A stretch of 64,000 nucleotides of DNA from assembly GCA_003599575.1 (NCBI GenBank), contig QZKV01000163.1, forward strand, positions 1 through 64,000, written 5' to 3'. Numbering within the stretch: position 1 is the first letter of the stretch; every line of letters starts with the position of its first letter. Of this stretch, positions 17,220 through 36,937 are shown in pieces. The translations under genes were made by a program, and so were the position numbers. Below the pieces are notes generated by a model that was not told where the DNA came from, did no database searches, and worked only from the letters and a program-made list of their open reading frames with translations. This DNA is from Desulfobacteraceae bacterium. GTDB lineage: Bacteria > Desulfobacterota > Desulfobacteria > Desulfobacterales > Desulfosarcinaceae.

Positions 17220-17495
17220 TTATCCACAGGCGGCTTTTGTTTTACCCCTGATCCAGACTTGAATGATATAGGCGGCGCAGCCGACGCCCGGCGAAACCGT
17301 CAAGGCCATGGCCGGGCAATTTTTGGCGCAAGCGCCGCATTCCATGCAGCCGTTGCGGTCCATGATCCTGGCTTTACGGCCGCTCAATGCCAGTACGCCA
17401 TGCGGACACACGCGCAAACACATGCCGCAGCCTGTACATTTTTGGACATCAAGGGCCAGGGTAACGACTTCATCCAGATAACGTAACGATTTCAT
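17220..17495 (-). CDS. hgcB: HgcB, ferredoxin of mercury methylation
   Basis: A 91-residue 2[4Fe-4S] ferredoxin. The cluster motifs are C20/23/26/30 and C50/53/56/60. A lone Cys73 sits in GVGCA, a hallmark separating HgcB from ordinary ferredoxins, and a further Cys lies at position 90 near the C-terminus. It starts 36 bp after hgcA on the same strand. HgcB is thought to reduce the HgcA corrinoid and help handle Hg(II). The length is in the family range. An unrelated ferredoxin is unlikely given Cys73 and the neighbour. Confidence 0.93.
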   Translation of the reverse strand: MKSLRYLDEVVTLALDVQKCTGCGMCLRVCPHGVLALSGRKARIMDRNGCMECGACAKNCPAMALTVSPGVGCAAYIIQVWIRGKTKAACG

Positions 17496-17531
17496 TTTCC
17501 AACCTTATGGCTTGGCTTGCCTTCGCATCGC

Positions 17532-18743
17532 TCAGGCGAATGCGCCTCCTATCCACAATCCAGCCGCCAGCAGAACCGCCGCGGCCTGCAGCGGAATGGC
17601 ATGGCGCATCTCCTTTTCGACCCCCGATGGAGATGTAAACGGTGTACACCCGGTAAAATTCATGGCCAAAAACGAACTCAGCACGGTGGTCAAAAGGACC
17701 AGTCCCGACCCGGACAGCGTGCTTATTCGAGGGGTATCCCATAGCAGCCCTCCCAGCAATAGGCCCAGAAACAACCCTGCGACGATTCCCTTGACTGCAA
17801 AAGCACGTCCGGGAATCCAGGGCAACAGCGCCGGGACCATGATGCTGCCGGCGAAAATGCCCGCCGCCGCGGCCGCCGCGGCTGCAAAGCCCCGCTCCCA
17901 GGCAGCTGCAATGGAAAAAATGGGCGGGCCGATACCCGACAGCACGAATAAACCCGCCAAAACCGGCAGAATGTATTTTCGGAGCATCATCAGCTCAAAC
18001 GGCACCAGCACCAGTCTTTCGGGCAGAGTGAACGTCACCCGGCGCATAGCCGTATCGCTTTCAGGCGGCGCCGACAAAAAAACCGGGATGTCTGCAGCGC
18101 GCACGGGCCCCCAGACCACTTCAAACCCGCATGCTTTTTTGACCATGCGGGCGGCAACGCCGGTGGCGCCCAACTGGGGCAGGATCAGCCGGCGGTGATG
18201 CACCAGCTCAGCCAGGCGGGTCGACCGCACCCGCCGGACCAGTTCTTGGGTGCTGAAAGCCCCTTTGCCGGCCGCGCACCACACATTGATGCCACAGGTA
18301 TCCAATACCAGCAGCCATGCGGCTGTCTCCCCCAGGCATCGGCGGACAGCATCGAAGGTGAGTTTGTAATTGGCCGTGACCAAGACGGGCGCGTCGCGGT
18401 CGGGAATGCCGGCCGCATAAATACCGGGGGCCACTTTGTAATCGTTGCGTCCTATTCCCAGGCGGACCCGCGCTGCCCCGAGGCGGTCCCGGCGATGCAG
18501 GGTGGTGCCGACACGCGGCACGGCCCCCACCGGGGTCTGGACGAAACCTTTGACAAAGGGGCACAGCGTGTACCCGGGCCGTTCATAGGGACTGCTCGGC
18601 GGACCGGCCGGAGCGCCGCAACAGGGCTCATTGTTTCCGGCGGGACTCAAGACCGGAAACATTTCCATTGCCGCACCGCTTGGATTGGACGCCTTTGGGG
18701 GCGCCGTGCAGCGGCAACCGTTCTGCTTTGAAAGCTCACTCAT
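17532..18743 (-). CDS. hgcA: HgcA, corrinoid methyltransferase of mercury methylation
   Basis: A 403-residue protein. The diagnostic cap-helix motif NVWCAAGK (Cys156) lies in a CdhD-like corrinoid-binding domain (about 55-240), where Cys is the lower cobalt ligand in known HgcA. The C-terminal ~150 residues form about five membrane helices and include [12 protein letters not shown] start at MSELSK, where the ATG overlaps the mscL stop (ATGA). An open frame extends upstream but lies inside mscL. It transfers methyl to Hg(II) together with HgcB, the next gene. The N-terminal ~50 residues are Cys/Pro-rich and look like a lineage-specific addition. Confidence 0.94.
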
Positions 18744-19192
18744 GCCGTCACTGCCTCCAGATCCGATGTACAATGCGGGCAGCGCCGCGCCTTGATCGGG
18801 ATGGTCGAAGAACAAAGCGGGCACTCCTTGGTGTTCGGCGCGGCCGGCGCTTTTCTTTGAAGCTTGTTCATACCGCGCACCAGCATAAAAACGGCAAACG
18901 CCACAATCAGAAAACTGATGATCTTGTTGGAGAACAGACCATAGTTGATGGTGACGGCGCCGGCTGTTTGCGCTTCGGCCAAAGAAGTATACGGACCGGC
19001 CGTCGTACCTTGTTTCAATACCAGAAACAGATTGGAAAAATCCACATTGCCCAAAATCCACCCGATTGGCGGCATGATGATATCGGCCACCAGCGACTGC
19101 ACGATGGAGCCGAAAGCGGCGCCGATAATGATCCCCACCGCCATATCCACCACATTGCCCCGCATGGCGAACTCTTTGAATTCCCTAAACAT
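18740..19192 (-). CDS. mscL: large-conductance mechanosensitive channel
   Basis: A 150-residue MscL. The N-terminal amphipathic helix and TM1 read [18 protein letters not shown] and [10 protein letters not shown]. The periplasmic loop and TM2 ([16 protein letters not shown]) follow. The C-terminal tail carries two CxxC pairs (CPLC and CPHC), a zinc-ribbon-like end absent from E. coli MscL. AGGGGGG precedes the chosen ATG. It is translationally coupled to hgcA and lies 150 bp from the phage attL, so its promoter is in the short host stretch beside the element. Confidence 0.92.
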
Positions 19193-19307
19193 GCTGCCCC
19201 CCTTTGGATGTGTGGTCAAGGCATCTTTGGGCCCGCCCCGCGAAAATCCGAGGTTGCTTCCGGCGGGCTGCAATGGTTTCACATTCATACCGCCGTGCTC
19301 AAAACAA

Positions 19308-19341
19308 AACAAGGGGTTCGGCTGGAAGCCGACCCCTTGTT
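19308..19341 (-). terminator. original terminator of tRNA-Phe, stranded at attL
   Basis: An inverted repeat (AACAAGGGG-TTCGGC with GCCGA-CCCCTTGTT, one bulge) is followed on the minus strand by TTGTTTTG. It lies 1 bp outside the left copy of the tRNA 3' end. Before integration it would have been directly downstream of the tRNA-Phe gene now at 61.3 kb. Confidence 0.75.
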
Positions 19342-19342
19342 G

Positions 19343-19388
19343 ATGGTGCCGAGGGACAGAATCGAACTGCCGACACGGGGATTTTCAG
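19343..19388. repeat. attL, 46-bp copy of tRNA-Phe 3' end
   Basis: Identical to 61250-61295. It covers the acceptor 3' strand, T-arm, variable loop and part of the anticodon stem of tRNA-Phe on the minus strand. Similarity stops exactly after TTTTCAG, which marks the crossover limit. Confidence 0.95.
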
Positions 19389-19450
19389 ACTTCGTGCCTG
19401 GCTTTTCACAAGTGCCTGATATGATCTATCTATCTTATTATACTTGAAAT

Positions 19451-19496
19451 AATCAATGGACAATTTTACCCCACCCCGCCCTATTTTCCATTGATT
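19451..19496 (-). promoter_or_regulatory. inverted repeat and outward -10 box near left end
   Basis: AATCAATGGA and TCCATTGATT form a 10-bp inverted repeat with a 26-base loop, downstream of the minus-strand nuclease gene. A TATAAT on the minus strand (19437-19442) with TTGTCC 15 bases upstream points out of the element toward mscL-hgcAB. The hairpin at 19308 stands between. The promoter call is weak. Confidence 0.35.
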
Positions 19497-19506
19497 CCCC
19501 GGTTTT

Positions 19507-19529
19507 CTTTAGCCAGTCTTTAGCCGGAA
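19507..19529. repeat. putative integrase arm-type site (left)
   Basis: CTTTAGC-NNNN-CTTTAGCCGGAA. The same 23-bp arrangement, differing at only four positions, lies 47 bp inside the right att site (61181-61203) in the same orientation. Direct repeats near both ends fit arm-binding sites of a tyrosine integrase. Confidence 0.55.
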
Positions 19530-19537
19530 TACGCGCC

Positions 19538-21004
19538 CTAAATGATATCTTGTGATATGAGAAATCTGAGATCGGTTATTTTTTCATCTGACGCAAGCCA
19601 GTTCTCTTGTTTTGACATATGAAAAAACGGCTGAACACGGCTGAGGAGCGGATTGTTCTGCAAGGCATTCCTTACCGAGTTGGGCGAGAGCTGGCCGAGA
19701 GCCGCTATCATCCAACTGGCGTTATCCGGATTCTGTTCGGCGGCCTGAATTAATTGATTAATCACATATTCGTTATCGATTAGCCTAAGCGCCTCGCATA
19801 CGGCGCCCCGCTGCCGATCGTTCCCGGTAACAAGCAAGTTGATAAGGCTACCGATCACATTATTAGGTGTATCCGTGTCGAAACCAGCAATGGCGTGAAG
19901 AACCACATCATCTTCATGATCATCTAAAAACTGGATCAAACTATCATAAGCTTTGGCACCGGCCTTCCCAATCCCCCATACAGCAGCCGGCCGGATCTCA
20001 TTGCCAAAGTATTCACGAGCAGTCGCTATACGTTGAAGTTCCATGAGGCTCTGACGGTCGGCTATTTCAGTCAGAATAAAAACACCCTCCATGGGAATAA
20101 AATCAATTCCAGGGTTGGCAATCTTACTAATGATGGTATCAAAACCCCTGGCTGAATTCATTCTGGCGAGGGAGGCACCCATTTCCAACGATACACGTTC
20201 ATCGGTTTCAATGTCCAATCCAGATTCAAGAGCAGATATACGATCGGTGATAGGAATGGCCTCATAAAACGGCAATGCTTTAGTTGCAGCGTATCTGTCT
20301 ATATCGATTGATGAACTCAATAGATCAAGTGGGCTCCAGGTATTTTGAAGCCTTGTCGCCGGCCTCACCGGTGCCGGAACAGTACCCGCTATAATAGATT
20401 CGAGCCCGGTAAATCTGTCACCCGTTGAAACATAGGCGATTTTTCCATTAAGGGAATACGTCTGTTTTCGTCCGCTATCGAATTCAGTGCAAATACGATT
20501 TCCATCGACACTAAGGACGACGCCGTCTTGCTTTGGAACTGTGCAAGGCCACGTCAGGTCACGTTCAGCACCTTCGGAAGCTGATTTAGGTGGACCAAGC
20601 TTTGCCGTTTCAAATGTGGCTTGAAGATCCCCGACTTTAAAATACATGGCGGTTTGAGCGGGACAAACCATGGACCCATTATTATGACAAGCAATGAAAG
20701 CTATTAGGTCATCCGACCGTAATCCTGCGTCCCAATATCGCACGGGATTTCTTTCCGCATGGCTCATCCTTATTTTAAGATCGGTTTTCGCCCTTACCTC
20801 TATCCTAACTCCAGTCCTCACACAAAGCAGATCAGGCAGGCGCAGGCGCTTCACTTTCGTTGACCAAATTTTATTCGAGGCGCAATAACGTTCCAATTCG
20901 ATCGGAATAAATCCTATGCCTCTAAGTTGCGCAATTGTCTGTTTAACTCCCATGGCTCCCATTGTAAGAAAGCGTAAGAAACTGGTATCAACTTTATATC
21001 CCAT
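19538..21004 (-). CDS. putative restriction endonuclease with HEAT-like repeats
   Basis: A 488-residue protein that I do not match to a named enzyme. The N-terminal ~100 residues look like a PD-(D/E)xK nuclease (Glu37, LPDLL with D58, then IEVRAK with E69 and K73). The C-terminal half (about 240-450) is built of alpha-helical HEAT-like repeats (AAVWGIGKAGAKAYDSLIQF, then similar units). It follows the XRE controller by 7 bp with AGGA before the ATG and is divergent from a DNA methylase. The context points to the restriction half of a type II-like system. The target site is unknown. Confidence 0.7.
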   Translation of the reverse strand: MGYKVDTSFLRFLTMGAMGVKQTIAQLRGIGFIPIELERYCASNKIWSTKVKRLRLPDLLCVRTGVRIEVRAKTDLKIRMSHAERNPVRYWDAGLRSDDLIAFIACHNNGSMVCPAQTAMYFKVGDLQATFETAKLGPPKSASEGAERDLTWPCTVPKQDGVVLSVDGNRICTEFDSGRKQTYSLNGKIAYVSTGDRFTGLESIIAGTVPAPVRPATRLQNTWSPLDLLSSSIDIDRYAATKALPFYEAIPITDRISALESGLDIETDERVSLEMGASLARMNSARGFDTIISKIANPGIDFIPMEGVFILTEIADRQSLMELQRIATAREYFGNEIRPAAVWGIGKAGAKAYDSLIQFLDDHEDDVVLHAIAGFDTDTPNNVIGSLINLLVTGNDRQRGAVCEALRLIDNEYVINQLIQAAEQNPDNASWMIAALGQLSPNSVRNALQNNPLLSRVQPFFHMSKQENWLASDEKITDLRFLISQDII

Positions 21005-21011
21005 GTGAGTC

Positions 21012-21242
21012 CTATTTCTTCTGAATCGGTTTCAGTAAATCGCGGGGATCACAGCCAAGGGCCTTTGCCAATGAAAAAATATTTTCTATCGAAACGTTTC
21101 TTTGAGCGCGCTCCACTGAACTGATATAAGTCCTATGGAGTCCGGCCCTGTCGGCAAGCTCCTCTTGTGACAGACCTGAGGATTGCCTTAATGTTTTGAC
21201 ATTATATGCCAGTATGTTTTTCGCTTCGGCCGTGGTAACCAT
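21012..21242 (-). CDS. XRE-family controller (C) protein
   Basis: A 76-residue helix-turn-helix protein (LRQSSGLSQEELADRAGLHRTYISSVERAQRNVSIENIF), the size and form of restriction-modification controller proteins. I start at MVTTAEAK, which has GGAA upstream. An in-frame GTG 30 bases earlier abuts a TATAAT and is probably upstream of the transcript. It is co-transcribed with the nuclease. It should bind the GACT/AGTC boxes between it and the methylase and set the timing of nuclease synthesis. Confidence 0.85.
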   Translation of the reverse strand: MVTTAEAKNILAYNVKTLRQSSGLSQEELADRAGLHRTYISSVERAQRNVSIENIFSLAKALGCDPRDLLKPIQKK

Positions 21243-21283
21243 CTTTTTCCATTGGCTAATCTTTTCCAGCACATTATATGGTT

Positions 21284-21312
21284 GACTTCTATAAGTCTAC
21301 AGACTATAAGTT
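21284..21312. promoter_or_regulatory. C-box operator pair between controller and methylase
   Basis: GACTTCTATAAGTC, a TACA spacer, then GACTATAAGT. This resembles the paired GACT...AGTC operators of C proteins. It sits in the 79-109 bp divergent gap and overlaps the -35 region of the minus-strand promoter, whose -10 TATAAT is at 21273-21278. Confidence 0.65.
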
Positions 21313-21351
21313 TCCCATCTGCAAACAAAGCAAGTCATAGAGAGTGTTCTA

Positions 21352-23106
21352 ATGAAAAAACCTATTCCTGATATTGTTCAAGTTCCAAGGACAGATCCTA
21401 TTTATAATTGTCATGGCTATCTTACAAAAGTTCCCGTGAATGCGATTTTACCTTTTATCGAATATTATTCTGAGCCGAATGATACCATTGCCGATATTTT
21501 TGCCGGTTCCGGAATGTCAGGAATCGCTGCCGCCATATCCGGACGCAATGCCTTACTGAGCGACATTTCTGTATTTGGCCAACACATAGCCCAGGGGTAT
21601 TTGTCAAAGGTTAATCCCAGCGATTTTATGAAAACCGCTAAACGGGTCGTTTCTGTTGTCCGGAAAAATGCAGGCGATTTCTACAAGACGATCAGGCTTG
21701 AAGACGGAAAACCGGTGGAGCTGATAAGAACCATCTGGTCTTTTGTTTATGTTTGTCCGGAATGCGGCCATAAACTGACTTTTTTCGATCATGTGAATAT
21801 TCCGGACAAGGAAAGAAAAGAAGTTTGTTCGGATTGCGGAAAAGATTTCAGCAGGCGTTCATGGGGGGTAAGAGGGGATGTCCCGGTCAGAGTTGTTGTT
21901 GATGGCGTATATGGTAAGCAAATTGAACAGGAAGTCCAAAGGGTCGATTACGATAATATTTCCAGGGCTGAAAAAGATCCCCGTTTGAAAAAGGTTCCCT
22001 CCCTGCCCATTGATCCGGACAGGGAAATGTATAGTCGCTCCGGACTTGGAAAGCGTCAGCTCAATGAAACCAAGTCGTTTTTTTCCGCACGGAATGCAAT
22101 CATTCTGAAAGAGTTATGGGAGGCAATTTCCGGAATAACCGATTCGGCTATTCGGAAAAAATTGCAATTCGCCTTCACAGCAATTCTGCCCCGTGCCTCA
22201 AGGCGATATCAATGGAGCAAGCAGCGTCCATTGAATGCCCAGAATCAGACTTATTATATTTCCCCGGTGTACTATGAATGGAACGTTTTCGAACTTTTTA
22301 TGCGAAAGGTAAAAGCTGCTATCCGTTCTGACGAAATAGTTTTTAGTGATGGTGACATTTTAGGAAAAACGGAATTTGGAAACGTCACCTATAACCTCGC
22401 TTCAGCGGATTCTTTGGACCATATAGCTTCAAATTCTATCGATTACGTGTTTACTGATCCTCCTTTCGGATCAAATATATTTTATAGCGATATGAGCCTA
22501 TTTCATGAGGCCTGGCTTGGTCAGATGACAAACCATGAAAAAGAGGCCGTCATACATACCTGTGGTTCAAAAAAAGAAAATGCGGCCGGTCGTTATGAGA
22601 ACTTGCTTAAAAAAGCTTTTAAAGAGACATACCGGATTTTAAAGCCAGGAAAGTACATGTCTGTTGTTTTCGGTAATAGCAAGGGTAGCGTTTGGAGTTT
22701 GGTTTTGCGTGCCCTTCGTGAAGCCGGCTTCGATTCTGTACCGGACAACATTGCAATCCTGGACAAGGGCCAAAGGTCCGTAAAAGGTTTAAGTTCCGGT
22801 TCTGAAAACGTAGTAACCGTGGACCTGATCTTAACGGTTCATAAGCCTAGTGATAGGGCGTCCGGCGAGACTAACGGTAAATGGAAACAAGCAGACCCGA
22901 AAAATTTGATTAGGGCCGCTATTTCGAATGCCGACAACGGTGACGCGAAGAACCCAAGTTATGTTTATGCTCAAATACTTAAGGAGGCAATAAACCAGCA
23001 CCTTTTGGTTGACAACCTCCACCTATCTGATGTGTTAATAGCTTTGAGAAATGCAGGTTTTGGAATTGATGCTAAAAAGGGACTCCTTATTCCTCCATCT
23101 AATTAG
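21352..23106 (+). CDS. DNA methyltransferase (adenine/N4-type) with zinc ribbon
   Basis: A 584-residue methylase. The SAM motif is FAGSG (residues 50-54) and the catalytic motif TDPPFGS (DPPF 369-372), the pattern of amino-methyltransferases. An inserted zinc ribbon (CPECGHKL then CSDCGKDF) lies near residue 140. It is divergent from the controller/nuclease pair and starts a four-gene plus-strand run with a ParA ATPase 15 bp downstream. It presumably protects against the HEAT-repeat nuclease. Confidence 0.87.
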   Translation: MKKPIPDIVQVPRTDPIYNCHGYLTKVPVNAILPFIEYYSEPNDTIADIFAGSGMSGIAAAISGRNALLSDISVFGQHIAQGYLSKVNPSDFMKTAKRVVSVVRKNAGDFYKTIRLEDGKPVELIRTIWSFVYVCPECGHKLTFFDHVNIPDKERKEVCSDCGKDFSRRSWGVRGDVPVRVVVDGVYGKQIEQEVQRVDYDNISRAEKDPRLKKVPSLPIDPDREMYSRSGLGKRQLNETKSFFSARNAIILKELWEAISGITDSAIRKKLQFAFTAILPRASRRYQWSKQRPLNAQNQTYYISPVYYEWNVFELFMRKVKAAIRSDEIVFSDGDILGKTEFGNVTYNLASADSLDHIASNSIDYVFTDPPFGSNIFYSDMSLFHEAWLGQMTNHEKEAVIHTCGSKKENAAGRYENLLKKAFKETYRILKPGKYMSVVFGNSKGSVWSLVLRALREAGFDSVPDNIAILDKGQRSVKGLSSGSENVVTVDLILTVHKPSDRASGETNGKWKQADPKNLIRAAISNADNGDAKNPSYVYAQILKEAINQHLLVDNLHLSDVLIALRNAGFGIDAKKGLLIPPSN

Positions 23107-23121
23107 ACTTGGGAGATTGTG

Positions 23122-23934
23122 ATGCCCACAACATTATCATTCGTCAACTTAAAAGGCGGTGTAGGAAAAACAGCTTTATCAGTGAATTTTGCAGCTTATT
23201 GCGGTAAAAAAGGATTAAAAACTCTGTTGATCGATACAGATCCACAAACAAATGCAACCTTTTCCTGCATTACTGCCGATGCCTGGAAAAAACATTCCGC
23301 TGATCATGGTACGATAGCTAATATAATGGGAATGAAACGGCATACATCGGCTGATGGATCAGAAGCTAAGGCCGAGGATGTTATTATCGAAGAGGTTTTT
23401 TACAATGTGGATCTGTTGCCATCACACTTGGACCTGTTCACCATAGATTTGGATTTGGCAAGCACAACTGCAAGGGAAAAAAAGCTTAAACGTGCCCTTA
23501 CGGATGTAATTGATGACTATGAAATGGTTGTGTGTGATTGTCCTCCCAACCTGACAATTCCGACCCAAAATGCTCTGGCAATGAGCACTCATTATGTCGT
23601 GCCAGTTTCCCCGGATTTTTTATCTGCGTTGGGGGTTGGTATTTTATTGAGCCGGGTGCAGGAATTTTGTGCGGATCTCGAGCACGATCTCACACACGTG
23701 GGATTAATACTTTCACGTGTCGGACGACCGGCAAAGCACAGGAGTGAGGTGACTGCCGATTTAAAAAAGAGGTTTAAGGCAAAAGTACTAAAAACAGCTA
23801 TACGGGAACGTGTTGTAGTAAGTCAAGCCGCATCAGAAAATCGGTCAGTATTCGATATGAAGGACAAAATCGCTATAAAAATGTTTGGTAATTGTTATAA
23901 CGAATTACTATCAAAAGTTGGAGTACAAATATGA
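23122..23934 (+). CDS. ParA/Soj-type ATPase
   Basis: A 270-residue deviant-Walker ATPase (KGGVGKT, residues 11-17; DTDPQTNATF; VVCDCPPNL). I start at ATG because GGGAG lies 6 bases upstream. A GTG just before it is also in frame. It overlaps the next gene by ATGA and follows the methylase closely. ParA proteins segregate plasmids or position cargo. A ParB-like gene lies 9 kb away. Alternatively it belongs functionally to the methylase-linked operon. The sequence does not decide. Confidence 0.9.
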   Translation: MPTTLSFVNLKGGVGKTALSVNFAAYCGKKGLKTLLIDTDPQTNATFSCITADAWKKHSADHGTIANIMGMKRHTSADGSEAKAEDVIIEEVFYNVDLLPSHLDLFTIDLDLASTTAREKKLKRALTDVIDDYEMVVCDCPPNLTIPTQNALAMSTHYVVPVSPDFLSALGVGILLSRVQEFCADLEHDLTHVGLILSRVGRPAKHRSEVTADLKKRFKAKVLKTAIRERVVVSQAASENRSVFDMKDKIAIKMFGNCYNELLSKVGVQI

Positions 23935-24317
23935 AAACACATGCTTTTGCTAAGGCTCTTAGACAATTAGCACATGTGCTGGAGTCAGGTCCGAATGTTG
24001 ATATTGCGAATTTACAATTCCAGGATCAAACTCAAAAAACAATTGATCCAAAGGAAGTAGCCTTAAGCCTTACTACTTTAATTAGCCTATCGAGAATAAG
24101 CAAACAGGAGTGGGTAGATTTAATAAATAATTATAAGTTCAGTATAAATCTTGGCCCCAGAGATTCAGCAAGGGATATTATAGGCAAACTATTGAGATAT
24201 CTAGATAAGCATCCGGAAGCAATAGATATGTTGAAAAAGAAAGCACATGAAGGTAATAAAGAGCCTACCGCGCTTTCAAGGGCCCTGGATGTATTATTGG
24301 ATGGCGTGAAGGAATGA
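23931..24317 (+). CDS. hypothetical protein coupled to ParA
   Basis: A 128-residue, mostly helical, unrecognised protein. It overlaps parA by 4 bp and the next gene by 4 bp, so the three are translated as a coupled unit. Position and size would fit a ParA partner (a centromere-binding or adaptor protein), but I see no ribbon-helix-helix or HTH signature. It has no ribosome site of its own. Confidence 0.75.
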   Translation: MKTHAFAKALRQLAHVLESGPNVDIANLQFQDQTQKTIDPKEVALSLTTLISLSRISKQEWVDLINNYKFSINLGPRDSARDIIGKLLRYLDKHPEAIDMLKKKAHEGNKEPTALSRALDVLLDGVKE

Positions 24318-25066
24318 AAACCTTAGAAAAAGAGCTGGAAAAAAGTTTTGATTTATTCAGCTCTGATTTGCACTCATCATTCTCGGTGTCTTTCAAAAGC
24401 CTTGAAGGGAATAAATCGATATATCTTGCAAGTTACAATAGGCTCTCCAGCTTAGAAGCATGGAGGGCCTATGTGCTGGAAGGAACAATATCTCCTGAAA
24501 GTTTGGATTTTTTTATTGAAGCACAAAACGATGCGCTGTTATCACATGCCTTCGCCAGGATAGGTTCTTGGCGAGCTGCCTTGAAGTCTTTACGGTCGGC
24601 GGTGGAAAACGTTTTATTCGGATTATTTTACAAGGACCACCCGGTCGAATATATGCTTTGGGAAAAAGGGAAAAGCCAACTCCCTATAAGTGAATATAGA
24701 AGTTATTTAGAACGCCATCCTCTTTATGATTCCATTCCTGATGAGCTTTCCGGCATTGCCTTGCTAAAAAAGGAGTATGCGACCTTATCAAAAGCCGTTC
24801 ATGGATCATCGACAAAATTCCGCATGACAACCGCTCCATACAAGTTTCCGTCTCTAATGGTTCCAGAGAAACCTAAATTAGGTCAATGGGCCACAAGAGA
24901 AAAAGAGACTTTACAGATGATTAATCAGCTTATGGTCTCAATGTTTTATGAAAAAATTCAAGGCGCCAAACTTAGGGATTTGAGAAAATCGATAAGCTTT
25001 TCTATTCCCAAGAAGTTGCATGCTAAGATTAGAAGCACATTTGGAATCAGTTTATTCACTCTATAA
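24314..25066 (+). CDS. hypothetical protein, third gene of ParA unit
   Basis: A 250-residue, helix-rich protein of unknown function. A segment reading YATLSKAVHGSS resembles the Arg/His-type end of HEPN-like helical domains, but the match is too short to assign. Coupled by ATGA to the gene before it. It closes the methylase-parA operon, followed by an A+T-rich promoter region. Confidence 0.7.
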   Translation: MKTLEKELEKSFDLFSSDLHSSFSVSFKSLEGNKSIYLASYNRLSSLEAWRAYVLEGTISPESLDFFIEAQNDALLSHAFARIGSWRAALKSLRSAVENVLFGLFYKDHPVEYMLWEKGKSQLPISEYRSYLERHPLYDSIPDELSGIALLKKEYATLSKAVHGSSTKFRMTTAPYKFPSLMVPEKPKLGQWATREKETLQMINQLMVSMFYEKIQGAKLRDLRKSISFSIPKKLHAKIRSTFGISLFTL

Positions 25067-25077
25067 AAGGCATGGCT

Positions 25078-25105
25078 TTGCAGTATTTTTAATATATGCT
25101 ATAAT
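25078..25105 (+). promoter_or_regulatory. promoter with extended -10
   Basis: TTGCAG, 16 bases, then TATAAT preceded by TGC. It reads toward the structured region at 25.2 kb and the zinc-ribbon gene beyond. Confidence 0.6.
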
Positions 25106-25213
25106 AATATTATAATACTCCCCCTCATAATTTTCCGCTTAACCAAGTTCACCCCTTTGCTTCGTTCCGCTTTTAAAAAATTTTAGCCGACCTTCGGCAA
25201 AATTATATAATAG

Positions 25214-25342
25214 TGTCGGATTTATGTCGCTTTTGGTGAAGACCACCAAAAACCGACAGCCCGCCTTTCCAGAACCTCGCAAATTGTACTAACGAGAACC
25301 ATGCAAAGCCGGGCTGTCGGCTACGCCAGACAAAATCCGACA
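25214..25342 (+). ncRNA. structured intergenic element (three-stem junction)
   Basis: A 10-bp closing stem (TGTCGGATTT with AAATCCGACA) encloses two further stems. One is 8 bp with a 5-base loop (TTTTGGTG/CACCAAAA). The other is 11 bp (CCGACAGCCCG/CGGGCTGTCGG) with a 46-base loop. It lies downstream of an extended -10 promoter, and no ORF crosses it. It could be an RNA, a replication origin or a protein-binding site. I do not recognise the family. Confidence 0.5.
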
Positions 25343-25373
25343 TAATAAAAATAATATTAATAAATTTAATCCT

Positions 25374-25646
25374 ATGCATGAAAAAATTGCCAAACTATCC
25401 GAGCTTTTTAAACAGCGTGACGCTATTGATAGCGAAATTATCGAGCTGATAGGAAGCTCGTCAACCGAAGCACCAAAAACTAAAACAACAAAAAGGAAAT
25501 ATAAAAAAAGGGAAATAACAGCTTCGTCTGAAGAGAGGGGTAAGAAATACAGGTGCGAGGAATGCAGTAAAATATTTTTCAGCACTGCTGATTACAAGGA
25601 TGTCCGGTGCAAATGCGGCGCCAAAAGAGTTATAAGCTTACCATAA
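25374..25646 (+). CDS. small zinc-ribbon protein
   Basis: A 90-residue protein: coiled-coil-like N-terminus, a Lys-rich linker and a C-terminal CxxC...CxC zinc ribbon (CEECSKIF then CKCGAK). No Shine-Dalgarno precedes the ATG. Function unknown. Confidence 0.65.
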   Translation: MHEKIAKLSELFKQRDAIDSEIIELIGSSSTEAPKTKTTKRKYKKREITASSEERGKKYRCEECSKIFFSTADYKDVRCKCGAKRVISLP

Positions 25647-25650
25647 ACAA

Positions 25651-25752
25651 ATGACCGTCCGAGAATACTATATAAAATTTGCCATAGTCTTAGGTGTTTT
25701 GGCATTCATAATGTTCAAGCATTCCCTGATAATCATAGACCAGAAAATGTAA
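25651..25752 (+). CDS. 33-residue membrane peptide
   Basis: The frame MTVREYYIKFAIVLGVLAF... has one clear transmembrane helix and a short charged tail. It starts 4 bases after the upstream stop, in the tight packing typical of this element. There is no ribosome site. Plausible but unproven. Confidence 0.45.
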   Translation: MTVREYYIKFAIVLGVLAFIMFKHSLIIIDQKM

Positions 25753-25790
25753 GGAATTTATGCTTATTGCGATAAATTACTATAACCAAA

Positions 25791-26528
25791 ATGACCCGAT
25801 CCAAACACACAATTATAGACATCCACCGCCTTGTTTCCGCTATTAGGGATTTTACGGCGTACACGCTCCAACCCTATACGAATGAATCTTCGAATAAGCT
25901 TGATTCTTCCTTAGCCTCTCCTTCCCGATATATTAGTAAATTATGCAAGGCCGGATTAATCAAACCTGCCAGGCTATCCAATTTCATCGGCGTGAATAAC
26001 AAGAAATACGCCTTTTACGGCACTAAGCAGATAGAGCTTGATTTCAATTCAGTTGCGCACCGGTCGATGCTCGCTGACCTGGCTATGGCGTTCAATTACC
26101 GCTTTGAGGATTGCCAATTAAGTTATGAGGAGAAAATCCCGGTTGACGGCACCGACATTAGAAGTGACCTGGTTGTCCGGACCGGGAAATATGTTTTTAT
26201 AGTTGAGCTGGAAAAATCCTTAACGCCATTGCAGATATTCGAAAACAAGATAAAGCGTTACGAGAAAATGAAGCGTAAAGGTGAATTCAAAAGCGCTATT
26301 GTTTTGTTTGCGTTCGCTCCCAGGATCTGGGATTTCAGTTGGCGGCCGCTTGAATATTGCCGGTTAGGCGCCGAAATCGCGAAATCGAAAGAAAGCGTGC
26401 AAGAGTTGATCAGGTTGTCTAAGGGCTGCAAGTATTACTACCGTTTTATGTCATTTCATGATTTTAATAAAATACACCAGTCCGTGTGGTTTAGGCCGGA
26501 TGGACAGAGGTGTAGGTTAATAAATTAA
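25791..26528 (+). CDS. replication-relaxation-like DNA-binding protein
   Basis: A 245-residue protein. A winged-helix-like N-terminus (SPSRYISKLCKAGLIKPARL) is followed by a restriction-fold-like core (GTDIRSDLVVRTGKYVFIVELEKS with a following Lys-rich helix). This arrangement resembles Replic_Relax proteins of mobile elements, which are often linked to replication or mobilisation. The family call is by eye and moderate. Confidence 0.55.
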   Translation: MTRSKHTIIDIHRLVSAIRDFTAYTLQPYTNESSNKLDSSLASPSRYISKLCKAGLIKPARLSNFIGVNNKKYAFYGTKQIELDFNSVAHRSMLADLAMAFNYRFEDCQLSYEEKIPVDGTDIRSDLVVRTGKYVFIVELEKSLTPLQIFENKIKRYEKMKRKGEFKSAIVLFAFAPRIWDFSWRPLEYCRLGAEIAKSKESVQELIRLSKGCKYYYRFMSFHDFNKIHQSVWFRPDGQRCRLIN

Positions 26529-26540
26529 TGTAAGAATAAA

Positions 26541-26756
26541 ATGAAGATTTTTGAAAAATTTCAAAAAATGTCAGACGAAGGTAAAGATATTCGTCTGGCA
26601 CCGCAAGCGAACATCCAGGGTGTTGATATTAATACCAGAGGCGGGATTGTGCATATTGCCGTAGATCTGCAAACCGCCCATGACCTCATGAATAATAAGG
26701 AATTTTACGGGGGATTGCTCCTTGCCGATAAGAAGCAATGCGATGAAATAGAATAA
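26541..26756 (+). CDS. small hypothetical protein
   Basis: A 71-residue acidic protein with no recognised domain. It is closely spaced after the preceding gene (12 bp). No ribosome site is visible. A CGGTTTG/CAAACCG inverted repeat lies between it and the next gene. Confidence 0.6.
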   Translation: MKIFEKFQKMSDEGKDIRLAPQANIQGVDINTRGGIVHIAVDLQTAHDLMNNKEFYGGLLLADKKQCDEIE

Positions 26757-26821
26757 TTTATTATTAAACCTCTTTCGGTTTGTCGTGGAATTTGATCAAC
26801 CGCAAACCGTAAGGAGGCTAT

Positions 26822-27259
26822 ATGCGTTTCCGCATTCTCGTTCCGAAGTTCAAGTACCTGGAAGTCAAAGAACCGCCCTGCCCGCCCTTTAAAAAATTCA
26901 CATTTCCCACTGATGTTTACGAATCTTTCAGATTCCTGAAGGACGAACCCAAAGAGCACTTCATCACCCTCCACCTGAACGGATCGAATAAGCTGGTCTG
27001 CATCGATATCGTTTCGGTCGGTCTGGCCAATCGTTCATTGGTCCACCCCCGGGAAGTTTTCCAGTCGGCCCTGCTCTCTTCTGCATGCGCCTTAATTCTG
27101 CTCCACAACCACCCTTCCGGCGAAATTCAGCCTTCCCAGGATGATTTCGCAGTTACCCGGCAGCTAAAGGAGGCCGGGCTTGTAATGGGAATAAAGATTT
27201 TGGATCACGTCATTATCGGCGAGGGTTACTATTCATTCAATGAAAACGGTCATTTATAG
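26822..27259 (+). CDS. RadC-like JAB/MPN domain protein
   Basis: A 145-residue JAB-fold protein. The metal motif is readable as LLHNHPSGEIQPSQDD, with VHPREVFQ upstream and DHVIIGEG downstream. It lacks the N-terminal HhH of full-length RadC. Such short RadC copies are common on ICEs, plasmids and prophages. Their role is unproven. AAGGAGG precedes the ATG, unlike neighbouring phage genes. It heads a run of SD-led genes up to 28.6 kb. Confidence 0.85.
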   Translation: MRFRILVPKFKYLEVKEPPCPPFKKFTFPTDVYESFRFLKDEPKEHFITLHLNGSNKLVCIDIVSVGLANRSLVHPREVFQSALLSSACALILLHNHPSGEIQPSQDDFAVTRQLKEAGLVMGIKILDHVIIGEGYYSFNENGHL

Positions 27260-27268
27260 GAGGTAAAC

Positions 27269-28057
27269 ATGGAAGGATTATCCGTTAACAGAGGCACGAG
27301 CATTATCGGACTGGATGAACTTAAAGCATTTCCGGTCCCACTGGCAACCGCGACTTATACCCCGGTGCCGCATTACGATCTGTCGAGATCCATCCGGACT
27401 ATCGGCCAGGATATGCTTACCGGCTTCAACCTGATCAATGAGCAATACGCCGTGGCCCGGAATGGTAACCAGCTTTTCGCCCTCATTACCATGAGGGCCG
27501 ACAATTCCGAAATGGGATTGTCCATCGGTTTCCGGAACAGTTACGATAAATCGATGTCGATCGGGATCGCTATAGGCAGTCAAGTTTTTGTATGTGAAAA
27601 CCTGATGATGACCGGCGACATAACGGTCATGAAAAAGCATACCCCCAATGTGCTGGCCACGCTGGAAGAGGCAACGATCAGCACCCTGTACCGGGCGCAA
27701 TACACCTTTTCCAAGCTGGTGAAAGATTCCCAGCTTTTAAAGGCCAAGGGCATTTCCGATCAGCAGGCTTTCCAAATGCTCGGGATATTGTTCGGCCACG
27801 GAATCCTTTCATCTCGGCAGTTACCGGTTGCTCTGGAAGAATGGCAGAAACCCCGGCATCCGGATTTCCAACCACGGAACGCCTTCAGCCTTTACCAGGC
27901 ATGTACGGAGTCCTTGAAATCGAGTCCTCCGATCAATGTCATGGAGCGGCACATCAATCTTCACCGAACCATAATCAACGGCCAAGAAGTTTGGGGGAAT
28001 GATGAACCTGAAGATCCTGGAAATTCTAGCCAAGTCATGGGTAAGGCGCGGACTTAA
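27269..28057 (+). CDS. DUF932-like plasmid/phage protein
   Basis: A 262-residue protein resembling DUF932 (phage/plasmid-like TIGR03299) through the IGFRNSYDKSMSIGIAIGSQVF core and the following VCENLMMTGD. AGGAGG precedes the ATG. It lies 9 bp after the RadC-like gene, the usual pairing on mobile elements. Molecular role unknown. Confidence 0.75.
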   Translation: MEGLSVNRGTSIIGLDELKAFPVPLATATYTPVPHYDLSRSIRTIGQDMLTGFNLINEQYAVARNGNQLFALITMRADNSEMGLSIGFRNSYDKSMSIGIAIGSQVFVCENLMMTGDITVMKKHTPNVLATLEEATISTLYRAQYTFSKLVKDSQLLKAKGISDQQAFQMLGILFGHGILSSRQLPVALEEWQKPRHPDFQPRNAFSLYQACTESLKSSPPINVMERHINLHRTIINGQEVWGNDEPEDPGNSSQVMGKART

Positions 28058-28184
28058 AGCCCCCTGCCCTTATTGCGGCAGTGAATTGGAAATTAAACCC
28101 TCCGACTATCAGGTTACCTGCACCAGTTGCAATAAATACTCAGCTGCGGAAACCCTGATAATAGAGGCCATTAAAAATCGGTGA
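27999..28184 (+). CDS. small zinc-ribbon protein
   Basis: A 61-residue protein with CPYCGSEL and CTSCNKY, a four-cysteine zinc ribbon. GGGGGA lies just before two adjacent ATGs; either could be used. It overlaps the end of the DUF932 gene. Similar in plan to the next gene, so the two may be ancient duplicates. Confidence 0.7.
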   Translation: MMNLKILEILAKSWVRRGLKAPCPYCGSELEIKPSDYQVTCTSCNKYSAAETLIIEAIKNR

Positions 28185-28199
28185 ACAACAGGAGGGCAA

Positions 28200-28478
28200 A
28201 TGACCCTAAAGACGATTTTTCAGCAGGTGACCTATTGGTATGAGCGCGGCGGCTTCACCTATCATTGCCAGCGTTGCGGTGAAGATATGAAAATCACGCC
28301 GACCGCCAAAATCAGTCCGTGCCTTCATTGCGAAAGCACCTATTGGACTGACAACCTGATCCTAACGGCAATTAAGGAGGATTGCGAAAAAAGGAGGGTG
28401 CAAGATGCCATTAAAGCAAATCGGAAGTCTTTGGAAAAAGACCAAGGGAAAAAAGACATACCTGACGGGAGTTCTTGA
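28200..28478 (+). CDS. zinc-ribbon protein, paralogue-like
   Basis: A 92-residue protein with CQRCGEDM and CLHCEST. The N-terminal 60 residues follow the same layout as the preceding 61-residue protein (helix, ribbon, second CxxC, then an ILTAIK-like helix). A charged tail follows. GGAGGG precedes the ATG. Confidence 0.72.
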   Translation: MTLKTIFQQVTYWYERGGFTYHCQRCGEDMKITPTAKISPCLHCESTYWTDNLILTAIKEDCEKRRVQDAIKANRKSLEKDQGKKDIPDGSS

Positions 28479-28590
28479 CCTCGGTGCAATGGGGCAGGTA
28501 AATGTCGGGATTTTCCCGAATGATCAGAAGGAGGAAAACCAACCTGATTACCGGATCGTACGTTTTGAAGAAAACCAAAGAGGCGAATAA
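28405..28590 (+). CDS. DUF736-like small protein
   Basis: A 61-residue protein of the form IGSLWKKTKGKKTYLTGVLD ... VGIFPND ... PDYRIVRF, which resembles DUF736 proteins of conjugative elements. GGAGGG precedes the ATG. It overlaps the preceding gene by 74 bp in another frame and ends at an intrinsic terminator. Confidence 0.68.
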   Translation: MPLKQIGSLWKKTKGKKTYLTGVLDLGAMGQVNVGIFPNDQKEENQPDYRIVRFEENQRGE

Positions 28591-28606
28591 ACCAGCCTCT
28601 TTTTTT
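28577..28606 (+). terminator. intrinsic terminator after DUF736-like gene
   Basis: AAAGAGGC/GCCTCTTT stem with a 10-base loop and a seven-T run. It ends the SD-led RadC-DUF932 unit and overlaps the last codons of the final gene. Confidence 0.9.
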
Positions 28607-28621
28607 ATTTATCCACAGCTC

Positions 28622-28656
28622 AAACATATAGAAGATTTTATTTTTTCTATATGTTT
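28622..28656. promoter_or_regulatory. 12-bp inverted repeat, candidate operator
   Basis: AAACATATAGAA and TTCTATATGTTT are separated by 11 bases, 58 bases before a consensus promoter that drives an HTH protein gene. It could be the binding site of that protein. Confidence 0.5.
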
Positions 28657-28713
28657 AGAAAGTCATTTAATTTTTTAGCTTATTTAAGCTTTTATTTCTG
28701 GCTTATAGGTATA

Positions 28714-28741
28714 TTGACAGCTAGTATATATATGCTATAAT
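28714..28741 (+). promoter_or_regulatory. consensus promoter with extended -10
   Basis: TTGACA, 16 bases, TATAAT, with TGC before the -10. This is the strongest promoter I see in the window. It opens the early phage gene block. Confidence 0.8.
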
Positions 28742-28768
28742 TAAAGTATAAATAATTTAGTCACCTGT

Positions 28769-29029
28769 ATGCCAAAGCTATCACTTATAAAAGAAGTAAA
28801 AATCCACAAGGTTGATTTAAAGGCACTCTGCGAAAAAGCAAATATTTCCTTGCCAGAACTCGCTCGTCTTGCGGAAGTCAACTATGCCCACCTAAATCGC
28901 ATTAGCTTAGGGTATCATTCAATGAGCCTTGCTTATTGGAATAAGCTAAGAAATGCTTTAGATAAACAAAAATTAAAACAAAAAAATGCCCAAAACAAAA
29001 ATCATAAAAATCCTCAACCAAAAAATTGA
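28769..29029 (+). CDS. small HTH protein
   Basis: An 86-residue protein with a Cro/C1-type helix-turn-helix (LCEKANISLPELARLAEVNYAHLNRIS is spread over residues 20-46) and a basic Lys/Asn-rich tail. First gene after the consensus promoter. No ribosome site. Likely the regulator of the early block. A repressor role is inference. Confidence 0.72.
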   Translation: MPKLSLIKEVKIHKVDLKALCEKANISLPELARLAEVNYAHLNRISLGYHSMSLAYWNKLRNALDKQKLKQKNAQNKNHKNPQPKN

Positions 29030-29111
29030 TTGCCTGATAATCGCAGGCAAAACAAAATCCCCAGAATACAGACGCCTTACTCGCCTACATTACAAACTAA
29101 CCCACGCGTAA
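28986..29111 (+). CDS. 41-residue basic protein
   Basis: The frame MPKTKIIKILNQKIDCLIIAG... overlaps the tail of the HTH gene and ends 1 base before the next ATG. Spacing and codon style match the element's other tightly packed genes. Function unknown. Confidence 0.45.
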   Translation: MPKTKIIKILNQKIDCLIIAGKTKSPEYRRLTRLHYKLTHA

Positions 29112-29112
29112 T

Positions 29113-29307
29113 ATGCGACCAGTCAATTCAATCAAAATGCCCCTTAATCCAATAGAGGCGGAACACGCTCGACAAAAAAAACACATCACGCCGGAGCTTT
29201 GTCCCCACCACAAAAGGTTTCATGAAGCAGTAGACATCACCAATCCTTTAATTGACGAGATCGAAAGCCACATCCTTTGTACAGCCTGTAATACAATAAT
29301 AGAATAA
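29113..29307 (+). CDS. small Cys/His protein
   Basis: A 64-residue protein with CPHHKRFH and CTACN, a possible zinc site. The start might be the second Met (MPLNPIEAEH). No ribosome site. Unknown. Confidence 0.55.
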   Translation: MRPVNSIKMPLNPIEAEHARQKKHITPELCPHHKRFHEAVDITNPLIDEIESHILCTACNTIIE

Positions 29308-29311
29308 AAAT

Positions 29312-29464
29312 ATGTCAGCATGTTTCGACCCCAAAAAAGGAATAGTCGGCAAACCAGTTGAATGGAAACCGCTATTCAAAGATCAAAACGACTTTCTCGG
29401 CTGGGTGATGAACACTAAGCCATTCGAGGAGCCGAAAGTTAAAAAAGTAGATATAACTAAGTAA
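29312..29464 (+). CDS. 50-residue hypothetical protein
   Basis: The frame MSACFDPKKGIVGKPVEWKP... is packed 4 bases after the previous stop and 10 bases before the next ATG, with the local AATATG start context. No domain recognised. Confidence 0.5.
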   Translation: MSACFDPKKGIVGKPVEWKPLFKDQNDFLGWVMNTKPFEEPKVKKVDITK

Positions 29465-29474
29465 CAATAAATTT

Positions 29475-30053
29475 ATGGAAAACACATTTCTTCCCCAGAG
29501 CTATGAACCGCCCGTAAGCGGTGGCAAGTATTTCAAACTAACAGACGGCGAAAACAGATTCAGAGTGCTTAGCTCCGCTATTGTCGGCTGGCTTGATTGG
29601 GACGACAAAACCCCAGTCCGAACCAAGGAACAGCCGGAAGCGCCGATCGATCCAAGCAAACCCGCCAAACATTTCTGGGCTTTCGTGGTCTGGGACTACA
29701 AGGGTGAAGCTGTGAAGATATTAGAGGTTACGCAAGTCGGCATTCGCAACGCCATAATGAATTTAGTCAAAAGCGCCGATTGGGGAGATCCCAAGAATTA
29801 CGACATTATTGTCACCAGAAAAGGCAAGGCGCTTGATACCGAATACAGCGTGGCGCCAGTACCGCCAAGACCGCTTGATCAGGCTATTGTCGAACTGTAT
29901 CAGAGCATGAATATCGACCTGAACAAACTGTACGAAAACGGCGATCCTTTCGCAGGTGCTCCAGTGACAGCCGAACAAATAGCCAAAGAACAGGCCGAAA
30001 TCGACAGGGAGAAGACAGGCGGAATTGACGTTAATCAAGTCCCTATGGGTTAG
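29475..30053 (+). CDS. putative phage ssDNA-binding protein
   Basis: A 192-residue protein with an OB-like N-terminal part (GGKYFKLTDGENRFRVLS) and WGDPKNYDIIVTRKGK. An acidic, flexible C-terminal tail follows. The layout resembles gp32-type single-strand DNA-binding proteins found near recombination genes. It precedes a NinB-like gene, separated by a 10-bp hairpin. Confidence 0.6.
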   Translation: MENTFLPQSYEPPVSGGKYFKLTDGENRFRVLSSAIVGWLDWDDKTPVRTKEQPEAPIDPSKPAKHFWAFVVWDYKGEAVKILEVTQVGIRNAIMNLVKSADWGDPKNYDIIVTRKGKALDTEYSVAPVPPRPLDQAIVELYQSMNIDLNKLYENGDPFAGAPVTAEQIAKEQAEIDREKTGGIDVNQVPMG

Positions 30054-30063
30054 TGGCTGATAT

Positions 30064-30092
30064 ACACAACTGGTTTCTAGTCCCAGTTGTGT
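30064..30092 (+). terminator. 10-bp hairpin, possible attenuator
   Basis: ACACAACTGG/CCAGTTGTGT with a 9-base loop, just after the ssDNA-binding-like gene. There is no strong U-run, so it may attenuate or protect the 3' end. Confidence 0.45.
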
Positions 30093-30108
30093 AATTAGAA
30101 ACAAACCT

Positions 30109-30552
30109 ATGTATTATTTAAAAGCCAAAGTTGAAAACGGCAAATTACATCTTCCCAATAGTTTATATCTTAAAGGGATATTGAAATTTTATGAGGGTAA
30201 GGAAATCAGTATTGAAATAAAGAAGTACCGCAAAACTCGTACTACGCAGCAAAACAAAGCCCTCCACCTCTGGTTTACTCAATTAGCCAACGAACTTAAC
30301 GACAACGGCTGTGATATGCGCCAGGTAATCAGCCAGGCCGTAGACATACCATGGTCGCCCTATACGATCAAGGAGCACCTGTTCCGGCCAACAATGAAAA
30401 CCATGTTCGGCTACAAAAGCACCAGACTGCTCAAAACAAACGAAATTGATAAAATATTTGATGTTATCAGTAAGGCGATAGGCGAGCGGACAGGCCTTTT
30501 TATCCCTTTTCCGAGTGTAGAAACGCTCATGCAAGAGGAATTAGAAAACTAA
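30109..30552 (+). CDS. NinB-like recombination protein
   Basis: A 147-residue protein. The NinB-type core RTTQQNKALHLWFTQLANEL is followed by DIPWSPYTIKEHLFRP and TMFGYKSTRLL. NinB (lambda Orf) proteins assist RecFOR-type recombination by binding single-stranded DNA. The upstream ssDNA-binding-like gene supports this. No ribosome site. Confidence 0.75.
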   Translation: MYYLKAKVENGKLHLPNSLYLKGILKFYEGKEISIEIKKYRKTRTTQQNKALHLWFTQLANELNDNGCDMRQVISQAVDIPWSPYTIKEHLFRPTMKTMFGYKSTRLLKTNEIDKIFDVISKAIGERTGLFIPFPSVETLMQEELEN

Positions 30553-30563
30553 AATAAAAACAC

Positions 30564-31076
30564 ATGAAAACCCAAACAAAAGACCTTAAAATCCTAATCT
30601 GGCTTATTCTATTCACTGCCCTAATCGGCTTTTACGCCAAACACAATGTAATCAAACCGGCAGAAGCCAACGCCCCAAATGACGCGATCAATTACAGATT
30701 ACCGTTTAATGACGATAAGGAAATGACCGACAAAGATATAATTTACGCAGTAGCGATGAGGGAGTGTTACGCTCACGGTTACGGAAAACTATGCAGAAAC
30801 GATCTGATGGGTATAGCGAATAAAGAATCAAAATTTGACTGTACGGCCAACGGAGACTTCGGCGCTTCACACGGCTGTTTCCAGATCCATTTAGGTTATC
30901 ACCCTGAAATAACCCAGGAGGAAGCAAGAGACCCCGAATTTGCCACAAAATGGACTTTTAAGAGGCTTTTGCACTATGGATACCCCGAATATCGTTCTTA
31001 CGCCATAATGCGTCATAACGGCACGCCAGGGACTGAAAAAACACTATCCTATTTAGAAGCAGTGAATAATTATTAG
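30564..31076 (+). CDS. membrane-anchored lysozyme/transglycosylase-like protein
   Basis: A 170-residue protein. One N-terminal hydrophobic helix (ILIWLILFTALIGFYA) is followed by a lysozyme-like core (MGIANKESKFDC, GASHGCFQIH) with the catalytic Glu in NKES. It could be a signal-anchor endolysin or a virion muramidase. It lies far from the M23/holin lysis genes at 55.8-56.7 kb. Confidence 0.68.
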   Translation: MKTQTKDLKILIWLILFTALIGFYAKHNVIKPAEANAPNDAINYRLPFNDDKEMTDKDIIYAVAMRECYAHGYGKLCRNDLMGIANKESKFDCTANGDFGASHGCFQIHLGYHPEITQEEARDPEFATKWTFKRLLHYGYPEYRSYAIMRHNGTPGTEKTLSYLEAVNNY

Positions 31077-31159
31077 ATATCTCGGCTGCCCTTATCCTCC
31101 ACAGGACGGGATTGCGACCCAATTTTAAGCGGCCACTCGATTATTATTAGATTATAAAT

Positions 31160-31441
31160 ATGGAAAAAGAAATTTGTATTTGTGCCGCAGTAAGAGCGAA
31201 CGGAAAAGTATGGCTGGGACATAGGCACAATAACTGCCTAGAGGCTATGAGAGATGAATTGTCTTATGCAATGAACAGGCAGCAAATTGGTAAATTAGAC
31301 GTAGAGCAGGGCTTCGTAACATCTAAAAACAGGTATGTCAGCAGGGAGGAGGGAAGGAGCTTGCAAGAGGCAGCTGGTATAAAATCAGCCGGCAAGGATG
31401 GCTACCGGGGGAACACTCTTTACAGCGAAGATTTATATTAA
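31160..31441 (+). CDS. conserved phage hypothetical protein
   Basis: A 93-residue protein with a recurrent phage pattern: WLGHRHNNCLEAM, EQGFVTSKNRYVSREEG and a LYSEDLY C-terminus. This family occurs widely in phages without a known function. Start context AATATG, no ribosome site. Confidence 0.75.
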   Translation: MEKEICICAAVRANGKVWLGHRHNNCLEAMRDELSYAMNRQQIGKLDVEQGFVTSKNRYVSREEGRSLQEAAGIKSAGKDGYRGNTLYSEDLY

Positions 31442-31486
31442 ATAACCATTTAGCAGTCTCCCCGCTTGTCCTGCCGAACTGAATGT

Positions 31487-31751: not shown

Positions 31752-31755
31752 CCCT

Positions 31756-31944: not shown

Positions 31945-31950
31945 AAATGT

Positions 31951-36931: not shown

Positions 36932-36937
36932 TTAAGT

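Follow-up and report, generated by a model that had tools for sequence, protein, structure and literature searches.

How is a mercury methylation gene pair expressed when its first gene starts on the stop codon of mscL, and does such a junction carry a function? The locus that raises this question lies in a window of 64,000 nt, the whole stretch of DNA analyzed, from a Desulfobacteraceae bacterium. The hgcAB pair is of a known kind, and the gene junction is unusual.

The hgcAB gene pair

The following features form the gene pair:

17532..18743, minus strand: hgcA, corrinoid membrane protein of 403 aa (open reading frame read, plus NF040863 match)
17220..17495, minus strand: hgcB, 2[4Fe-4S] ferredoxin of 91 aa (open reading frame read, plus NF040864 match)

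An earlier note on this DNA had identified the genes as hgcA and hgcB from their motifs and had named an HMM search and a tree placement as checks. Both checks bore out the identification. HgcA matched the curated NCBIfam model NF040863 with 422.7 bits (8.8e-127, residues 75-402; cut-off 275), and HgcB matched NF040864 with 122.1 bits (6.2e-36; cut-off 99). Pfam CdhD covered only residues 102-220 of HgcA, and because both NCBIfam scores exceeded their cut-offs, an identity as CdhD or as an ordinary ferredoxin was rejected. The host genome contains one hgcA gene above the cut-off. The cap-helix motif NVWCAAGK, which fits N(V/I)WCAAGK, is present, and its cysteine is residue 156, as had been stated; in an alignment of 30 HgcA proteins, N153-A157 are invariant. 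The five-helix membrane tail also agreed with the earlier description: five hydrophobic segments (251-281, 285-310, 312-338, 343-366, and 382-403) were obtained by merging overlapping Kyte-Doolittle peaks, so that the membrane domain is predicted by hydropathy only. In HgcB, cysteines 20, 23, 26, 30 and 50, 53, 56, 60 fit two CxxCxxCxxxCP motifs, and the cysteine of GVGCA is residue 73, so that both the ferredoxin type and the residue number had been given correctly.

The HgcA tree comprised 97 rows, including a single CFeSP row as the outgroup; L045, L064, and L066 (<300 aa) were left out, and G003, also short, was kept. The window HgcA was placed among HgcA proteins, apart from CFeSP, in a clade of six rows (window, G005, G006, G009, G003, and G011) with a support of 100/99. 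Its nearest relative by identity (66%) is the HgcA of G005, a MAG that carries locus L017 and is named uncultured Desulfatitalea sp. As HgcA groups with its genus relatives, vertical inheritance is likely. The host has CFeSP-type genes elsewhere, on contig C5; the CFeSP gamma protein is on a very long branch, and its placement is unsure.

With regard to gene identity alone, a complete hgcAB pair is practically certain. Methylation of Hg(II) is predicted for the corrinoid protein HgcA and the ferredoxin HgcB with its Cys73; curated models, motifs, and tree placement support the earlier prediction of a mercury-methylating host. This adds a predicted methylmercury producer to the genus of the MAG named Desulfatitalea. 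In vitro, HgcAB takes the methyl group from S-adenosylmethionine, according to the accessible part of PMC11588087. The host assembly has a completeness of 98.67% and a contamination of 6.93%. Two dsrA copies exceeded the cut-off (G000:C68:24905-26173 and G000:C196:3024-4250); the presence of dsrA is consistent with a sulfate reducer, and the second gene is either a further copy or contamination.

The window pair resembles the hgcAB genes of Pseudodesulfovibrio mercurii ND132 and other Desulfobacterota in the corrinoid domain with the cap-helix cysteine, the five-helix membrane part, and an HgcB with two [4Fe-4S] motifs and Cys73. In contrast to ND132-type pairs, it overlaps with mscL, has no ArsR-type gene upstream, has Cys-Cys in the N-terminal motif of HgcA, and has a single cysteine instead of a pair in the HgcB tail. 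The window HgcB ends with KAACG, and thus at least one tail cysteine (Cys90) is present, whereas the genus relatives G003, G005, G006, and G009 have CC at this end. The earlier note mentions neither this tail nor the N-terminal Cys-Cys of HgcA. Among 93 HgcB tails, 60 had CC, 23 a single cysteine, and 10 none; the pattern was crude, and CC is undercounted because the pattern cuts tails at GCGC or UGA.

The overlap with mscL in the window and in other genomes

Upstream of hgcB and hgcA, the following features were found:

18740..19192, minus strand: mscL, encoding 150 aa; the C-terminal tail has the form CxxC...CxxC
18740..18743, minus strand: ATGA overlap of the mscL stop and the hgcA start, read directly from the sequence
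18754..18758, minus strand: GGAGG, candidate ribosome-binding site of hgcA within mscL, 10 nt before the ATG, read directly
19193..19300, minus strand: leader of 108 bp, from a hairpin to mscL, the expected place of the operon promoter

MscL exceeded the cut-offs of PF01741 (145.4 bits, cut-off 27.4) and TIGR00220 (131 bits, cut-off 71); zinc-ribbon matches of its tail fell below the Pfam cut-off. The hgcA ATG (18743-18741) overlaps the mscL TGA (18742-18740), and reading the sequence confirmed what had been said about this start. Translational coupling of mscL and hgcA is plausible, given the overlap and the GGAGG inside mscL. An alternative hgcA start at Met26 (18668), matching the MEMLP start of the L017 open reading frame, was rejected, as no Shine-Dalgarno motif was seen by eye before Met26, in contrast to the GGAGG in front of the start at 18743.

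The distribution of the junction was quantified in 80 hgcA loci from named genomes, of which 72 were testable, i.e., had their motif intact and sufficient sequence upstream; four were dropped for lack of an intact cap motif or open reading frame and four for too little upstream sequence. In only two of the 72 loci was mscL found up to 5 kb upstream of hgcA, in L017 on the same strand at a distance of 3.6 kb and in L082 on the opposite strand. The overlap of mscL and hgcA occurred in none of them. Among 30 genomes of the family, 12 had hgcA above the cut-off, 11 had mscL, and 6 had both; of these, the window genome and G005 were the only ones with the two genes near each other. They are on different contigs in G006, G009, G017, and G020, and G003 was outside of the proximity test because its contig begins inside a partial hgcA. 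As far as the 72 testable loci and the 30 family genomes were examined, the overlap is specific to the window genome. The earlier note had claimed coupling to an osmotic-stress channel; the overlap itself held, but a functional osmotic link was not supported, and osmotic coupling as a conserved trait was rejected, as no other testable locus has the overlap.

Origin of the junction and expression of hgcAB

The genomic surroundings of the junction include an integrated element and the tRNA gene into which it inserted:

61374..62132, minus strand: rsmE
61251..61326, minus strand: tRNA-Phe (gaa), the insertion target (tRNA call and repeat match)
60222..61172, plus strand: tyrosine integrase of the prophage (phrog_1, 2.5e-34)
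19389..61249, no strand: integrated prophage of 41.9 kb with lower GC and genes for terminase, portal, tape-measure, tail, ParA/ParB-like, and integrase proteins
19538-21004, minus strand: HEAT-repeat protein, first prophage gene at the left end, pointing at mscL
19343..19388, no strand: attachment-site copy, a perfect 46-bp repeat of the 3' part of tRNA-Phe (61250-61295)
19301..19342, minus strand: strong terminator-like hairpin with a U-rich run between attachment site and mscL (fold energy against shuffles)

Up to 20 kb, the 2-kb windows have a GC content of 0.54-0.61; between 20 and 60 kb, the values are 0.39-0.48. The left end of the prophage also contains an HTH gene (21012-21272) and a DNA methyltransferase gene (21352-23106).

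The gene order of the window is rsmE, tRNA-Phe, prophage, mscL, hgcA, and hgcB, and no rlpA match was found in the window. G005 and G008 likewise have rsmE and tRNA-Phe on the upstream side of mscL. G005 begins with rsmE and tRNA-Phe and has several inserted genes ahead of rlpA and mscL; a sensor kinase gene of opposite orientation follows, and after it come arsR, hgcA, hgcB, and a second kinase. G008 has rsmE, tRNA-Phe, inserted genes, rlpA, and mscL, followed by the kinase that comes after hgcB in G005, and lacks hgcAB. In G009, rlpA-mscL and a related kinase are present with hgcAB not beside mscL, and in G010 mscL and the kinase are at a contig end without hgcAB there. The simplest reading of these gene orders is that a neighborhood was inherited and genes were lost. 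Ancestral hgcAB was probably downstream of a neighborhood of rsmE, tRNA-Phe, rlpA, and mscL, and the loss of intervening genes in the window lineage would have joined hgcA to the nearest upstream gene. The overlap is thus probably a lineage-specific, contingent junction. Repeated insertion at a tRNA-Phe hotspot is another possible route to it. Separate insertions are possible because G005 is the only other genus member that keeps hgcA near mscL and because G008, G009, and G010 have mscL beside a kinase gene, with no hgcAB at that place. In G011, which belongs to a sister genus, rlpA ends 21-30 nt before hgcA (L121, 5440-7107); the 9.6-kb locus of L121 contains no hgcB match, and no mscL match was found in G011.

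Of the 72 testable loci, 26 have an ArsR-type gene upstream of hgcA, including L017 of G005; none was found in the other 46 by a profile that was derived from matches to a single sequence and may overlook divergent regulators. G006 also has such a gene, and its product shares 73.8% identity with the G005 protein. In the window, the profile search of 8001-30000 found no ArsR-type gene. The best of seven ArsR-family matches in the host genome to the ArsR of G005 had 42 bits and 44% identity over 67 residues, and a close copy of the G005-type regulator is absent from the host assembly. The profile search also found no ArsR gene near hgcA in G009, of the same genus, or in G011, and it is therefore uncertain whether the regulator is ancestral. 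ArsR-type control of hgcAB and co-transcription of arsR with hgcA are described in the accessible parts of PMC7438021 and PMC10349881. The window shares the hgcA-hgcB order and the protein families with the arsR-hgcA-hgcB loci presented there. In contrast to those loci, and to G005 and G006, it has no regulator gene, and none was seen in G009 either. As a natural hgcAB pair that lacks the ArsR-type gene present in G005 and G006, it could be compared with these relatives to test the role of the regulator.

Since the window lacks the arsR and sensor kinase genes that separate mscL from hgcA in G005, and since hgcA starts on the mscL stop, hgcA would most likely be translated from a predicted mscL-hgcA-hgcB message, with the Shine-Dalgarno motif inside mscL. 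Because the window lacks the ArsR gene of its relatives, expression of hgcAB is likely to be free of ArsR-type control and would be set by the mscL promoter. Against this reading, a consensus scan of 16900-19700 recognized no promoter before mscL in the leader; such scans are weak, and the promoters of the host may differ from the consensus used. Taken as a whole, the chain of inherited hgcAB, junction with mscL, shared message, and lack of ArsR-type control seems to us rather probable.

It is possible, if somewhat doubtful, that hgcAB has its own promoter inside mscL and that the overlap is close packing without a regulatory effect. The junction is present in no other testable locus, and hence hgcA is expressed without mscL elsewhere; moreover, a weak terminator-like hairpin was found inside mscL (18904-18891 on the coding strand). 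However, within mscL the same weak scan of 16900-19700 gave no promoter-like site on the minus strand, and the GGAGG is well positioned for re-initiation. Two further weak hairpins of this kind are located inside hgcA; together with the one in mscL they also count against the shared message, although such hairpins occurred at about the chance level in the scan (6 found versus 4.4 expected). Far less can be said for transcription from phage promoters, which we regard as very improbable. It is true that the left attachment site is only 150 bp from the mscL start, that the first prophage gene is directed toward mscL, and that a promoter-like site (9/12) is present at 19490-19463. But promoter-like sites were near the chance level (3 found versus 1.6 expected, sd 1.3), and the hairpin at 19301-19342, predicted to have -24.3 kcal/mol (z -5.56, 0 of 200 shuffles as good), stands between prophage and mscL and should stop prophage transcripts, which makes prophage-driven expression unlikely. 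The consensus scan did not list this hairpin, the stem of which has a bulge; perhaps it is the old terminator of tRNA-Phe.

The remaining two explanations concern a function of the junction and a decay of the pair. A functional link to mscL, by which osmotic shock or membrane tension would raise hgcAB expression or MscL would pass thiol-bound mercury in or out, is unlikely. The overlap would favor joint translation if the genes were co-transcribed, and the CxxC pairs of the MscL tail could bind metal. Yet no other testable locus has the overlap, the tail is present in all nine MscL proteins of the genus that were compared, irrespective of whether hgcA is nearby, and in the literature searched, mostly without subscription journals, no publication was found that pairs hgcA with mscL or a mechanosensitive channel with mercury methylation. 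A decaying hgcAB pair, with the regulator gone and the HgcB tail shortened, could be read from the KAACG* end in place of the CC of G003, G005, G006, and G009, but this is similarly improbable: the motifs are intact, hgcA has no internal stop, and one tail cysteine remains. In ND132, according to the accessible part of PMC7305189, loss of either tail cysteine alone was harmless, while loss of both led to a 95% drop of activity, so one is sufficient. The preferred reading remains an intact, inherited pair that would be expressed together with mscL.

UGA codons in HgcA, HgcB, and a MerB-like protein

The N-terminal extension of the window HgcA contains Cys41-Cys42, which are kept irrespective of whether translation begins at 18743 or 18668. 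Among 99 distinct HgcA rows, 46 had CC at this motif and 26 had a cysteine with an in-frame TGA directly after it; by the pattern used, the other 27 had neither, some of them lacking that region. The C-TGA of the extension is upstream of the start given by a plain open reading frame search, e.g., in L039, L055, L067, and L086. In HgcB, a TGA at the position of Cys73 with a frame conserved beyond it was found in 11 loci (L033, L034, L035, L036, L037, L041, L042, L047, L048, L102, and L110), eight of which are named Desulfotignum. A hairpin sequence with a GGTC loop, CCAGGTCTGG, is present just after the TGA in these 11 loci. Nine of them have no CC or CU motif in HgcA by the pattern, and L036 and L110 have CC. 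Selenocysteine forms of HgcA (CU) and HgcB (GVGU) are already contained in a table of PMC13188914, in its accessible part, which cites Haft and Gwadz 2023. These are the same proteins, and Cys42 of HgcA and Cys73 of HgcB in the window match the UGA positions by motif; in contrast to the selenocysteine forms, the window carries cysteine at both positions.

The most surprising item is a double-UGA family of MerB-like proteins, which is encoded outside of the window:

G000:C12:32476-33171 (L147:2977-3672), minus strand: MerB-like protein of family PF03243, frame continuing beyond both TGA codons

A MerB search of the host genome gave this single PF03243 match (58.1 bits, cut-off 27) with two in-frame TGA codons. 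Its NCBIfam scores were below the cut-offs for both MerB (33.5 bits, cut-off 193) and SaoL (44.2 bits, cut-off 140). In an alignment to the MerB structures 5c17 and 3f2g, both TGA codons fall on two cysteines, which we take to be the catalytic C96 and C159. Among 79 relatives, five full-length copies were found, each with two TGA codons, and two weak partial matches in addition, in G005 (one TGA) and G009 (none). In 389 genomes of the class, all 24 full-length copies (over 300 bits) had two TGA codons, while five partial copies had one and five distant homologs (76-90 bits) had none. The two UGA codons were at the same aligned positions, 65 residues apart, in all 20 loci fetched. Of five loci read, all had an arm of the type CTTCCGGTCGGAAGA after the second TGA, in four of them within the best fold, and three had a GGTC loop sequence after the first TGA; the hairpin support is thus mixed. 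The host has SelB (373.6 bits). UGA at a catalytic cysteine position, a frame that continues beyond it, a hairpin, albeit with mixed support, and SelB are the features by which bacterial selenoproteins are recognized, and the MerB-like protein is apparently selenium-containing, with putative selenocysteines.

Within the genus, the carriers of MerB-like genes (the host G000, G005, G006, and G009) are the four members with full-length hgcA, and G003 as well as the six members without hgcA lack the gene. A strict link to hgcA, suggested by five of five carriers with hgcA above the cut-off in the first 79 genomes, was rejected in the larger set. Of the 389 genomes, hgcA (E up to 1e-60) was present in 17 of 24 full-length carriers and in 154 of 365 others (one-sided Fisher p 0.006, uncorrected for kinship); when the five partial copies were included, it was present in 21 of 29 carriers (p 0.001, likewise uncorrected). 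With 17 of 24 carriers, the link is an enrichment and not a rule. We tentatively consider that the genus pairs hgcAB, which in the window is ArsR-less and joined to mscL, with an unnamed double-selenocysteine lyase of the MerB type, so that one cell might both make and cleave C-Hg bonds and the lyase would protect the methylator from its own product. If the MerB-like protein cleaves methylmercury, net methylation would not be predictable from hgcA alone.

A description of MerB with two selenocysteines was not found in the literature searched. A MerB-like selenoprotein, SaoL, with the motif CU is already listed in the accessible part of PMC13188914, and the accessible part of PMC9312934 lists a MerB-like protein under the accession of this SaoL. 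The host protein shares the family PF03243 with the organometallic lyases MerB and SaoL, and its UGA positions align with two cysteines of MerB. It differs from them in that both aligned cysteines are UGA codons and in that it remains below both NCBIfam cut-offs. A match of the SaoL kind is also present in G005 (L153).
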